Shown one piece after another: positions 17,028 through 21,995 of a stretch of 64,000 bases of DNA. This DNA is from Terriglobia bacterium. GTDB taxonomy: Bacteria; Acidobacteriota; Terriglobia; Bryobacterales; Bryobacteraceae. Under the pieces are notes generated by a model that ran no database searches, was not told the origin of the DNA, and was given only the letters and a program-made list of their open reading frames with translations. Location: positions 1-64,000 of the forward strand of contig JAIQFK010000030.1 of NCBI GenBank assembly GCA_020073305.1, read 5' to 3'. The translations under genes were made by a program, and so were the position numbers. Numbering within the stretch: the first letter of the stretch is position 1; each line of letters starts with the position of its first letter.

Positions 17028-18311
17028 ATGAACATCAACGCTATGTTTTCAAATCGTCGCGCTTTCCTGAAATGGGCGGCTGTGCTCCCGACGCTGGGGG
17101 CTTATGCCGTTGAAGACCTGTTCGCCAAGGCGCGAAAATCGGTAGGACGCAGTGCCAAAGCCAACGTCTACACGCGTATCGGCGTAACACCCATCATCAA
17201 TGCGCGTGGCACGTGGACCTATATCAGCGGCTCGCAGGAACTGCCCGAAGTGCGCCAGGCCAAGCAGGAGGCCGCAATGCACTTTGTCGACATGTGGGAA
17301 CTGCACCGTGCGGTGGGCAAGAGACTCGCCGAGCTTTCGGGCGCCGAAGCGGGCCTGGTGACCGCGGGCGCTGCAGCCGCTATGGCAACGGCTACGGCAG
17401 CCTGCATGGCCGGCACGGACCCGGCCAAAATCTGGCAACTGCCCGACACCACCGGCATGAAGAACGAAGTCATCATGTTCGGCGGACGCATTTCGTTCGA
17501 CAGCGCGATTCGCGCTGCCGGCGGGAAACTGGTTGTGGTCCATTCCCATGACGAGCTGCAAGCCGCCTTCAACGATAAAACGGCGATGGTCTACACCACC
17601 GCCCGGGGCGACAGGCTCGAGAAGGCCATCCCCATGACAAAGGAGGCGCGCGTGCCGATCCTGGTGGACTGGGCGGCTGGAATCCCTCCGATCGAGAACC
17701 TGTCCCTGCCCTGGAAGATGGGGGCGGACCTGTACACCTTTAGCGGCGGCAAGGGCCTGTGTGGACCTCAGTGCGCGGGTCTGCTGCTGGGCCGCAAGGA
17801 CCTGATTGAGGCGGCTCTGGCCCAGAGCTGCCCTTGGGAAGGCGCAGTCTGCCGGCCGATGAAGGTCGGCAAGGAAGAGATCATGGGCGTGCTGGCCGCG
17901 GTTGAGGCGTGGAAGACGCGGGATCTGTCGCAGTTGGACAACGAGTGGAACAGGCGGGTGAAAAAAATTGCCCAACTCGTGGAGTCAGTGCCAGGTGTAA
18001 CCACCGAAATTCAGACCCCCCAGGGAGGGAACCGTTACCCGACGCTTACCGTGAAGTGGGACGAAGCCGCATTCAAAATGAACGTACAGGAGTGCGCAAA
18101 GAAGCTGCGCGACGGATCTCCGCGGATCGAAGTGCTGACGGGGAACAACCCCAGTACGGTGCCTGGCGTTCACGAAGGCGACCCCAAGACTCCCAGGCCG
18201 CCTCGCCCCGACTCGTTGCGGATTATTTCAATGACGCTGCAGCCGGGCGAAGATGTAGTTGTCGGCCGGCGTTTGCGCGAGGTCCTGAGTGAGGCCCGGA
18301 AAGCAGTGTAA
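17028..18311 (+). CDS. Tat-exported PLP-dependent enzyme of the SelA / D-glucosaminate-6-P lyase fold
   Basis: The 427-residue protein begins with a twin-arginine leader (FSNRRAFLKWAAVLPTLGA). The catalytic part starts at YTRIGVTPIINARGTWTYIS and contains the SelA-family marks AGLVTAGAAAAMATATAACM, LVDWAAGIPP (Asp214, pyridine-nitrogen partner) and FSGGKGLCGPQCAGLL (Lys242, the Schiff-base lysine). Family members include selenocysteine synthase and D-glucosaminate- or galactosaminate-phosphate lyases. True SelA has a longer N-terminal domain and no export signal, so I do not call it SelA; an elimination or lyase reaction on an amino sugar or amino acid outside the cytoplasm is a better guess. 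A folded PLP protein exported by Tat is unusual. It sits about 0.7 kb from the selenoprotein genes. Confidence 0.75.
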   Translation: MNINAMFSNRRAFLKWAAVLPTLGAYAVEDLFAKARKSVGRSAKANVYTRIGVTPIINARGTWTYISGSQELPEVRQAKQEAAMHFVDMWELHRAVGKRLAELSGAEAGLVTAGAAAAMATATAACMAGTDPAKIWQLPDTTGMKNEVIMFGGRISFDSAIRAAGGKLVVVHSHDELQAAFNDKTAMVYTTARGDRLEKAIPMTKEARVPILVDWAAGIPPIENLSLPWKMGADLYTFSGGKGLCGPQCAGLLLGRKDLIEAALAQSCPWEGAVCRPMKVGKEEIMGVLAAVEAWKTRDLSQLDNEWNRRVKKIAQLVESVPGVTTEIQTPQGGNRYPTLTVKWDEAAFKMNVQECAKKLRDGSPRIEVLTGNNPSTVPGVHEGDPKTPRPPRPDSLRIISMTLQPGEDVVVGRRLREVLSEARKAV

Positions 18312-19673: not shown

Positions 19674-20741
19674 ATGCGTATACCGACCGAACCCATCGGC
19701 AGCATTCCGCGACCGGCCGAACTGATTGCTGCCTTCCGGGACCAGCAGGCCGGCCGGATCCCGGCTGACGCATTCGAGCGCATTGCGGAGCGCGCGCTCC
19801 AGGACACTATTCGCCGCTTCGAGGACACCGGCTCGCCAGTCATCACCGACGGCGAGCAGACCAAGCCGAGTTTCGCCACGTATCCGCTCAGCGGCCTGAC
19901 CAACCTGGCGCCCGACGGTGTCGTGATTCCGTTTGCGGACGGGCACACACGCCAGTTGCCCCGGCTGAAGTCCGGACCGTTCCATTACGCCACGTATGCG
20001 TCGAAGTACCTTGCGGCGGCAAAGCAGTTGACGGCACTGCCGGTGAAACAGGCCGTGATCTCAGCTTCTGCGCTGAGCCTGCTTTACCCAAACTCCGGAA
20101 TTCCCGGTTACGCGCGCGATGCCTTCCTCTCGGACCTGGTGGACGAAGCCGTCGCTGATATCCGCCAGTGTCTCGCGCATGGCGCCGACAGCGTTCAAAT
20201 CGATTTCACCGAGGGACGTCTTTCGCTGAAACTCGATCCGTCGGGAGGGTTGCTGCAAAATTTCGTTGCGCTGAATAACCAGGTGCTTGACCATTTTTCG
20301 CGGCCGGAGCGCCGACGCATAGGCGTCCATACGTGTCCGGGCGGAGATCAGGATGCAACGCACAGCGCGGATGTGGATTACGTTGGGCTGCTGCCCATAT
20401 TGTTCCGGCTTCGCGTGGGGCGCTTCTATATCCAGTTGGCGAGCGAAAATGATCCCGAGCGCGTGTTGAAAATCACGCGGCAGCACCTTCAGCCGGATCA
20501 GATCGTATTTGTCGGCGTTATCGATCCCATCAGTCCCGCGGTCGAGACGCCGGAGCGGGTATGCGAGCGAATCCTGCTCGCGGCCAAGCACCTGCCCGTA
20601 TCGCAATTGGGCACGACGGACGATTGCGGCTTCTCGCCTTTCGCGGATGATACTTCCACTTCGCGCGATACCGCTTTCGAAAAGATATGCGCCCGCGTGA
20701 TCGGCACCCAGATGGCCGCTCAACAACTGGCCGGTTCCTAA
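19674..20741 (+). CDS. MetE-core-like cobalamin-independent methyltransferase
   Basis: The 355-residue protein (MRIPTEPIGSIPRPAELI) matches stand-alone C-terminal domains of cobalamin-independent methionine synthase: SPVITDGEQTKPSFATYPL near residue 55-73, the barrel strand SVQIDFTEGRLSLK, and zinc ligands recognisable as H219 and C221 (VHTCPGGD), E258 (LASEND) and C318 (TTDDCGFSPF). At half the length of MetE it lacks the N-terminal folate domain, so it probably transfers a methyl group from another donor to a thiol (or selenol) acceptor. The TTG at 19632 is the only upstream alternative start; the family alignment favours 19674. It is divergent from the AhpD-like gene and directly upstream of the DUF3179 gene (24-base gap). 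Confidence 0.8.
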   Translation: MRIPTEPIGSIPRPAELIAAFRDQQAGRIPADAFERIAERALQDTIRRFEDTGSPVITDGEQTKPSFATYPLSGLTNLAPDGVVIPFADGHTRQLPRLKSGPFHYATYASKYLAAAKQLTALPVKQAVISASALSLLYPNSGIPGYARDAFLSDLVDEAVADIRQCLAHGADSVQIDFTEGRLSLKLDPSGGLLQNFVALNNQVLDHFSRPERRRIGVHTCPGGDQDATHSADVDYVGLLPILFRLRVGRFYIQLASENDPERVLKITRQHLQPDQIVFVGVIDPISPAVETPERVCERILLAAKHLPVSQLGTTDDCGFSPFADDTSTSRDTAFEKICARVIGTQMAAQQLAGS

Positions 20742-20765
20742 ACGACAAATCCAGGACACGTGAGC

Positions 20766-21995
20766 ATGATCGCCAACACTCAACTCAAGCGATGGATATT
20801 CATGGTCGTCATGCTGGTTAGCTTGCTCGTGTCGCTGGCATGCGTGGTTTACCCGATGTATGTGATCCGGCCGTTCCGTGCGCAGGGCGCTGGCGAATTG
20901 GCGGCAGCTCTGGTGGTCGCCCGTTTCCGAGGGCTCACTACGGTGGTTTGCGGGCTCGTGGCACTGGCGGCGGTCGCTCTCTATTGGCGAGTGCAGACTC
21001 GCAGGTGGCGACGAATTCTTACGGCGACCGGCGCCGGGTTTGTGTGCGTTCTGGCCGTGCTGGCACGCGTGAACGTCTACGAGTTGATGTTCCATCCGGC
21101 TGACCATCCGGCGTTCACGGCGGCAGCTCAGGTGAAGATCGACAAAGATGACAAGGTGCTCGTGGTGAAGATCAATGGCGAAGCACGTGCCTATCCGATC
21201 CGGACCATGGGGTACCATCATGTGCTCAACGACGTCGTCGGCAAGACTGCGATCGTTGCGACGTATTGAACGCTCTGTCACACCGGTCTGGTGTGGACGC
21301 GAGATGTGGCCGGTTTGCGGCTGACGTTTCATCTGGCCGGTATCAATAACCAGAACTTTCTCATGCGCGATGAGGAGACGGGAACCTATTGGCAGCAGAT
21401 CAGCGGCCTGGCGATTTCGGGTCCGCTCAAGGGCCGGCAACTGACGCTGGTTCTGTCGGATGAACTCACCTTCGCGACATGGAAGGCTGAGGAACCCCAA
21501 GGCACGGTGCTCAAGGACGTGCCGAAGTATACCTCTGAATACGAAAGCAAGGATTGGGATGTGACCATGAAGCGCGTTCCCGTCGTTATCCGGTTTCCAG
21601 AACATGGTCTGAAGTCGCGCGATCTGATGCTGGGAATTCAGGTGTTCGGCGCCAGCCGCGCGTTCCCGTACGAACAGGTCATCAAGGAGAAACTCGTTAA
21701 GGATCACGTTGGAGCGCAACCGGTGCTGTTGGTGGTCGCACCGGATGGCCAGTCCGTACGCGCGTTTCACGACCGAATCCCGAACCTGGCCGGCGCGCCG
21801 GATTTTTACCGGATAACCGAGACAAAGCCAGACGCACTGCTCATGGACGCAGCAACCGGCAGCGAATGGAATTTCCGGGGCTGCGCCGTTTCAGGAAGCG
21901 CGAAAGGCGCTTGCCTCGAGCGCATTCCGATGCTCAAAGACTACTGGTTCGATTGGCGGAACTACAATCCCAAGACCACGATTTATGGGAAGTAG
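20766..21995 (+). CDS. DUF3179-family membrane selenoprotein (UxxC), with in-frame UGA
   Basis: From ATG 20766 (AGGA nine bases upstream) the frame encodes three hydrophobic segments (WIFMVVMLVSLLVSLACVVY; LTTVVCGLVALAAVALYW; ILTATGAGFVCVLAVLARV). Then comes the DUF3179 domain: KDDKVLVVKINGEARAYPIR, GYHHVLNDVVGKTAIVATY, TGA at 21267-21269, TLCHTGLVWTRDVAGLRLTF, YWQQISGLAISGPLKGRQL, and on to a stop at 21995 in the same frame. DUF3179 proteins carry TYCPLCxTxLV at this point, so the UGA stands for the first Cys of CxxC, giving U168-T-L-C171. A textbook GGUCU-loop hairpin follows. The likely product is 409 residues, membrane-anchored, with its redox motif in the soluble domain. Family function is unknown. 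Automatic annotation would give two short proteins or a 569-codon antisense frame instead. Confidence 0.88.
21277..21298 (+). promoter_or_regulatory. Bacterial SECIS element in the DUF3179 gene
   Basis: CACACC (21279-21284) and GGTGTG (21290-21295) make a perfect 6-bp stem around the loop GGTCT (21285-21289); GT at 21277-21278 and AC at 21297-21298 extend it with one bulged G. The loop GGU begins 16 nucleotides after the UGA, within the range known for bacterial SECIS hairpins, and GGUCU is also the core of the E. coli fdhF loop. The hairpin is coding as well (CHTGLVW). Confidence 0.8.

Follow-up and report, generated by a model that had tools for sequence, protein, structure and literature searches.

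The stretch of DNA analysed here, which we call the window, is 64,000 nucleotides long and comes from a Terriglobia bacterium; its nearest protein relatives point to the Bryobacterales (Acidobacteriota). On its forward strand there is a gene for a DUF3179 protein whose frame contains a TGA, and the question is whether this codon ends the protein or is read as selenocysteine (Sec). The gene occupies 20766-21995. Its frame runs from an ATG at 20766 to a TAG at 21993-21995, encodes 409 residues if the TGA is read, and has a single in-frame TGA at 21267-21269, which is codon 168. Past the TGA there are 241 codons and the stop in the same frame, which bears out the long continuation described in the initial annotation. 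With U read as Cys, the read-through frame matches PF11376 (DUF3179) over residues 113-404 at 206.3 bits, where the gathering cut-off is 27 bits, and in a profile search of the whole genome the DUF3179 match spans one TGA.

The Cys that opens the Y-C-x-L pair of the family signature Y-C-x-L-C falls at codon 168, and Cys171 (21276-21278), the second residue of the UxxC pair, is invariant in a 55-row alignment. The initial annotation had placed the TGA at 21267 on the first signature Cys from knowledge of the family; the coordinates are correct and the alignment bears out the column, which holds Cys in 11 close and 27 distant homologues and Gln in a single one (L111) of the 161 rows. Judged from one sequence, the open frame after the UGA is only moderately unusual: in the six frames of the window, an open run of 240 codons or more comes after 32 of the 1699 TGA triplets. 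It is the conservation across relatives that puts the UGA and its frame far above chance.

We compared the best 80 of 110 genomic relatives. TGA is found at exactly codon 168 in 79 of these 80 and TGC in one (L189), and the relatives that keep the UGA are 43-74% identical to the window protein. The proposed search for homologues with UGA or Cys at this codon therefore found both. Further stops in close relatives had been named as a sign against the reading: there are none in the gene itself, but one relative copy (L173, 246-1373) does have an extra stop. This is a second in-frame stop in a metagenome-assembled copy, and reflects either a damaged gene or an assembly error. Across the phylum, 133 of 396 genomes have a DUF3179 match. 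Among the 150 matches listed for the 396 genomes, 52 contain an in-frame stop (counted by hand), each of them a single TGA, and TAA or TAG in frame occurs in none of the 150.

The source genome (6.98 Mb, 51 contigs, 99.89% complete) has the full Sec machinery. There is a tRNA-Sec (76.5 bits; anticodon UCA according to ARAGORN), a SelB (359 bits), a SelA (508 bits, contig C3) and a SelD (368 bits), so that selA, selB, selC and selD, which the initial annotation had asked to be looked for, are all present in the same genome. The selD gene (L025, 1501-2424) has an in-frame TGA of its own, in AGUASK, and its product is likely to be a selenoprotein itself. In 14 control genomes the SelA profile was over its cut-off in one, the SelB profile in two and the tRNA-Sec model in five. 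The tRNA-Sec search scored the best 150 first-look candidates per genome. Its model also matches tRNA-Ser, which was over the cut-off in G130 and, as a second match, in the source genome, and for this reason the tRNA calls were cross-read by ARAGORN wherever the locus sequence existed. A pyridoxal phosphate (PLP) protein at 17028-18311 (+), near the selenoprotein gene, has a weak Pfam SelA match (28 bits). It was considered as the SelA of the genome and rejected, as it scores 22.2 bits against an NCBIfam cut-off of 267.9 and the true SelA lies elsewhere, on contig C3.

Among the matches listed there are 46 UGA-bearing genomes, and a strong SelA was found in 43 of them. Of the 396 phylum genomes overall, 250 have a SelA above the cut-off, so the link between SelA and UGA is, taken alone, a mild association. 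No strong SelA was found in the other three UGA genomes: G046 and G317 have none and G080 a weak match. SelB is over the cut-off in seven of the ten UGA genomes tested, G046 being one that has it, and below it in G317, G080 and G399; in G399 there are two SelB pieces, one of them at a contig edge. A tRNA-Sec is present in all six of the UGA genomes tested for it beside the source genome, among them G046, G317, G080 and G399.

The Cys forms give the complementary picture. Ten Cys orthologues, whose genomes belong to a different family within the class, group together as a single supported clade nested inside the Sec clade of the tree; they show 44-50% identity, and the distant Cys-type rows 22-37%. 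SelA is over the cut-off in none of the ten genomes of this clade (five have weak matches, E about 1e-5 to 1e-6, and the other five have no match), SelB in none of the seven tested (G094, G130, G370, G155, G163, G171 and G359), and a tRNA-Sec was found in none of the five tested (G094, G130, G171, G370 and G155). ARAGORN reads the best match of the tRNA-Sec model as a tRNA-Ser in four of these five; the best match in G370 does not reach the cut-off. UGA thus accompanies the Sec machinery, and Cys takes its place in the clade for which no machinery was found, which is the behaviour expected of a selenoprotein.

The direction of change in the ten-member clade, from Sec to Cys, rests on parsimony. 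The Cys form in L189 (1345-2490, YCGLC) is a second, independent change from Sec to Cys, this time without loss of the machinery: SelB and tRNA-Sec are both still present in its genome, which is of the Bryobacterales. That Cys is used despite SelB and tRNA-Sec indicates that Sec is not indispensable. Sec is probably the ancestral state of the acidobacterial clade and would then have given way to Cys at least twice. A quick tree gives at least seven changes between Sec and Cys, a rough count, as 43 of its 157 forks are open and the root was set at the midpoint. Ten duplicate loci had been removed from the tree input (171 to 161 rows), and the two locus collections overlap in part, L097 and L171 sharing the same Sec-region DNA and lying on equally long contigs.

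There is a hairpin downstream of the UGA, CACACC-GGUCU-GGUGUG, which would be the apical hairpin of a SECIS element. It lies at 21279-21295 (+), with stem strands at 21279-21284 (CACACC) and 21290-21295 (GGTGTG) and the loop at 21285-21289 (GGTCT), and has a folding energy of -7.7 kcal/mol. The stem begins at the 10th nucleotide after the UGA and the loop at the 16th, with 15 nt between; this confirms the 6-bp hairpin with a GGUCU loop, ten nucleotides past the UGA, that had been described from the sequence. The SECIS of E. coli fdhF has GGUCU as its loop too. In stability the first 46 nt downstream of the UGA do not surpass shuffled sequences (z -0.09), and for the 17-nt hairpin alone z is -2.17, with 3 of 200 shuffles as good. 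The bSECIS model specifies a loop of 3-9 nt, a stem of 4-16 bp, a G in the first two loop positions, a minimum free energy (MFE) of at most -7.5 and a distance of 16-37 nt from the UGA to the apical loop (PMC13188914). The 5 nt loop (GGUCU), the 6 bp stem, the G and the MFE of the 17-nt hairpin agree with this model, and the spacing, 15 or 16 nt by counting convention, is at or one below the published range.

The stronger evidence for this element comes from its conservation in relatives. Taking as close those UGA genes whose identity to the window protein is 37.5% or more, we looked at 101, and 88 of them have the exact hairpin. The closing pair is changed from C-G to G-C, with compensation, in four (L164, L173, L174 and L197), the first three from one clade, which makes at least two events. 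The outer pair is lost in two genes and is G-U in one; three have another stem (L075-L077), in L165 and L192 the GGUCU loop is kept but has moved 5 nt downstream, onto a different stem built from other codons, and L090 fits no hairpin class. Codons +4 to +8 (H-T-G-L-V) are almost frozen: the fraction of the most-used codon is 0.90-0.98 in 100 UGA genes (one row with an identical 180-nt window having been dropped) and 0.45-0.73 in the 11 Cys genes that serve as control, ten of which are from one clade. Outside the hairpin, codon choice is far less fixed at most well-conserved residues of the UGA genes, although codons +1, -1 and +28 are likewise highly fixed. The synonymous freezing in UGA and not in Cys genes, together with the compensatory pair, strongly supports the view that the SECIS is conserved as RNA, beyond the protein code.

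Among the distant Sec forms of the phylum, 21 in number, the majority read W-U-P-L-x. In 19 of the 21 the best-scoring hairpin has its loop 20-21 nt past the UGA, a typical one being CGGGCGU-CGUGU-ACGUCCG; these hairpins were picked by score, so the pattern is descriptive. Twelve of the 21 lack the second Cys and have Ala, Asp, Thr or Val instead, whereas in the 38 Cys forms the second position is Cys in 35 and Thr in three. The absence of the second Cys from so many Sec forms, and from so few Cys forms, suggests that the chemistry takes place at residue 168 and that Sec does not need a partner Cys. Within the phylum there is a second DUF3179 group with W-U-P-L-A or W-U-P-L-V (for example L060, L062, L063, L064, L066, L071, L072 and L073), in which Sec has no second-position Cys and the hairpin is differently placed.

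Two other explanations of the TGA have to be weighed against this evidence. If the UGA were a true stop, the locus would be a pseudogene or carry a sequencing error, or it would encode a 167-residue membrane part and a separate 234-residue part starting from a GTG at 21291, and a mechanical 234-codon ORF does begin there. This does not account for the same UGA in 79 of the 80 best relatives, for a protein that is conserved on both sides of the UGA, for codon freezing that is confined to UGA genes, or for Cys standing in place of UGA where the Sec machinery was not found, and we consider a true stop highly improbable. Alternatively, UGA might be read as an ordinary amino acid throughout the genome. 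We found no support for such a reassignment; UGA ends four of the nine window ORFs looked at, so that it is also an ordinary stop in this genome, and the Sec machinery is complete. The probability of reassignment appears negligible.

Four lines of evidence uphold the UxxC selenoprotein proposed in the initial annotation: codon 168 lies in a Cys column, the genome has the Sec machinery, the SECIS is conserved, and Cys forms occur in genomes where SelA was not detected. None of the conditions that the initial annotation named as refuting applies to this genome. The product of 20766-21995 is very probably a selenoprotein in which UGA168 is decoded as Sec.

We next consider what the protein may look like. 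The AlphaFold model, from 55 aligned sequences, has a mean pLDDT of 94.7; three long helices at the N-terminus are joined to a domain that is built from two repeats rich in beta structure. The helices (residues 2-33, 42-76 and 80-99; 20769-21062) are predicted to lie in the membrane from their hydrophobic sequence. Repeat 1 (residues 118-272; 21117-21581) holds Sec168 and Cys171. Repeat 2 (residues 276-409; 21591-21992) is without UxxC. A comparison of the two sequences by hhalign shows the repeats to be homologous (probability 98.9, E 1e-17). Two residues of repeat 2, Cys373 (21882-21884) and Cys383 (21912-21914), are invariant in the 55-row alignment and possibly form a disulfide.

When the full model was searched with VIA-align, the top row, 9umg (Z 10.6), covered the helical part only, and Rieske domains came next, repeat 2 reaching Z 8.9 and repeat 1 reaching Z 7.3. 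Repeat 1 modelled alone (pLDDT 93.1) superposes on the Rieske ferredoxin 3gce with Z 8.8 and an rmsd of 2.6 A over 93 residues, and on NirD with Z 8.1. All 50 rows listed for it are, by title, Rieske-domain proteins or NirD-type relatives, though some titles name only a complex. Models that have no clear match typically reach a best Z of 7 to 8, which 8.8 exceeds by a small margin. Foldseek gave no match below E 0.001 for the full model or repeat 1 (probability up to 0.99 for repeat 1), and solved structures searched by sequence gave no match up to E 1. In hmmscan the protein matches DUF3179 only, and not the Rieske profile (PF00355); profile comparison with seven Rieske sequences gave probabilities of 0.4 for repeat 1 and 18 for repeat 2, values that do not establish kinship. 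High Foldseek E values, a small Z margin and no profile kinship make the fold likely rather than proven, and what favours it is that the structural matches listed agree with one another. On the strength of the models we regard a Rieske-like fold of the DUF3179 repeats as likely, and it is, to our knowledge, the first testable structural lead on DUF3179.

The cluster-binding positions of Rieske proteins are not retained in repeat 1. The equivalents of the CxH and CxxH ligands C46/H48 and C65/H68 of 1vck (residues 180-186 and 199-206, a register obtained by range arithmetic and not by residue-level alignment) hold no Cys or His. The aligned ranges place Sec168 and Cys171 on the hairpin turn that precedes the first Rieske loop, roughly 1vck residues 30-37. 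We considered whether UxxC or CxxC corresponds to the Rieske CxxH loop, and the alignment register argues against it. As the 1vck cluster ligands fall on stretches without Cys or His, Sec168 is probably not a Rieske ligand. His151 and His152 (21216-21221) are invariant in the 55-row alignment, and the pairing of hairpin strands 153-158 and 161-168 in the model would bring them close to Sec168.

These observations suggest the following mechanism. UGA168 would be decoded as Sec by SelB and tRNA-Sec(UCA), directed by the hairpin ten nt downstream, as its conservation and the presence of all parts imply. In the product, three membrane helices at the N-terminus would be joined to a DUF3179 domain that consists of a Rieske-like beta-fold in duplicate. 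This domain most likely lies outside the cytoplasmic membrane, since the N-terminus and the segment linking helix 2 to helix 3 carry positive residues. Repeat 1 would have no cluster ligands at the Rieske positions and would carry Sec168 and Cys171 at a beta-hairpin turn near the conserved His151 and His152. Sec168 would react and Cys171 would resolve, and such a selenol/thiol redox role seems to us, on balance, the probable one. The protein would then most likely be a membrane-anchored, extracytoplasmic selenol/thiol oxidoreductase.

The main rival to thiol-redox chemistry is a metal site, in which Sec168, Cys171 and His151 (perhaps with His152 or His172) would bind a metal ion or small cluster and Sec would be a tuning ligand on a Rieske-like scaffold. 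The Rieske-like fold of the model and the invariant His, Asn and Asp next to the UxxC in the subfamily (55-row alignment) are in line with such a site, but the UxxC does not map onto the Rieske ligand loops, and a single reacting selenol fits the 12 of 21 distant Sec forms that lack the second Cys better than a shared ligand does. We therefore think a metal site unlikely. Keeping to selenol/thiol chemistry, we put forward tentatively a wider history: DUF3179 may be a duplicated, membrane-anchored Rieske-fold domain that lost its [2Fe-2S] cluster and gained a selenol/thiol site at a beta-hairpin turn beside a His pair, that is widespread in the Acidobacteriota, and from which some lineages drop the second Cys once the first is Sec. 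If this is true, DUF3179 would be a Rieske-scaffold selenol oxidoreductase.

The gene neighbourhood was examined as a clue to function and set aside, as the neighbours are not widely conserved and their functions are unrelated. Apart from the DUF3179 gene and an antisense shadow ORF, no neighbouring cluster is present at more than 18 of 141 loci, and those that occur look lineage-specific. Pfam identifies the eight neighbours in the window as a DeoR regulator, a beta-propeller protein, the SelA-like PLP protein, a MetE-like protein, a Ser/Thr kinase, an MFS transporter, an ECF sigma factor and a TPR protein. The antisense ORF (20061-21770, minus strand, 569 codons) overlaps the DUF3179 gene and has homologous antisense ORFs at 34 of 141 loci; it is probably a codon-bias shadow in GC-rich DNA.

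Finally, the protein can be compared with known systems. The initial annotation knew of no description of Sec in DUF3179, and here it has to be corrected: PF11376 (UxxC/T) is already tabulated among the prokaryotic selenoprotein families, in a 2022 review under 'predicted' (PMC9312934, PMC13188914). The tables of both reviews credit Zhang and Gladyshev (2007, NAR 35:4952), on a deltaproteobacterial symbiont of Olavius (PMC9312934, PMC13188914). The NCBI annotation 'DUF3179 domain-containing (seleno)protein' appears, as a name alone, on four of 20 plasmid records listed, all four haloarchaeal. A DUF3179 protein of Idiomarina has been tabulated as a cytoplasmic-membrane protein (PMC9230427). For the Acidobacteria, an early survey gives three selenoprotein families (PMC1794560) and deep-Sep three known selenoproteins in one acidobacterium (PMC12013277). 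The titles and opening abstract lines of the literature on acidobacterial selenoproteins make no mention of DUF3179. Within the parts of the literature covered on DUF3179, acidobacterial selenoproteins, and Rieske proteins with selenocysteine, where the 2007 source is represented by the review tables, there is no account of Sec in acidobacterial DUF3179, of its SECIS variants or of its fold.

The acidobacterial protein shares its domain and motif with the listed DUF3179 selenoprotein family, and the gene is almost certainly a well-supported additional selenoprotein of that family, not a new kind. Set against the Olavius symbiont case as credited in the reviews, the present member is acidobacterial, has a three-helix membrane anchor and comes from a clade where UGA is the usual codon at this site. 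What appears to be new, in relation to the literature as covered here, is the near-universal UGA in an acidobacterial clade, the reversion from Sec to Cys, and a SECIS that shifts while its GGUCU is kept. The sister group that is often without the second Cys, and the duplicated Rieske-like model without Rieske ligands in repeat 1, likewise appear to be new on this footing. In the literature covered here DUF3179 is a table entry, and the present data add strong evolutionary evidence. For most of the acidobacterial relatives in this set, gene-calling software that ends a gene at UGA would yield a fragment of some 167 residues.

The Cys-type DUF3179 proteins of the same phylum also match PF11376, but have Cys where the present protein has Sec168, and the Sec and Cys orthologues in sister lineages are a set with which to test what Sec adds. 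The predicted repeat 1 superposes on Rieske proteins (PF00355; the CarAc ferredoxin 1vck) and on NirD (2jo6), which is not known to carry a cluster. Unlike the Rieske proteins, the DUF3179 protein has no Pfam Rieske match and no ligand Cys or His in repeat 1, is duplicated, and would carry its Sec at another site.
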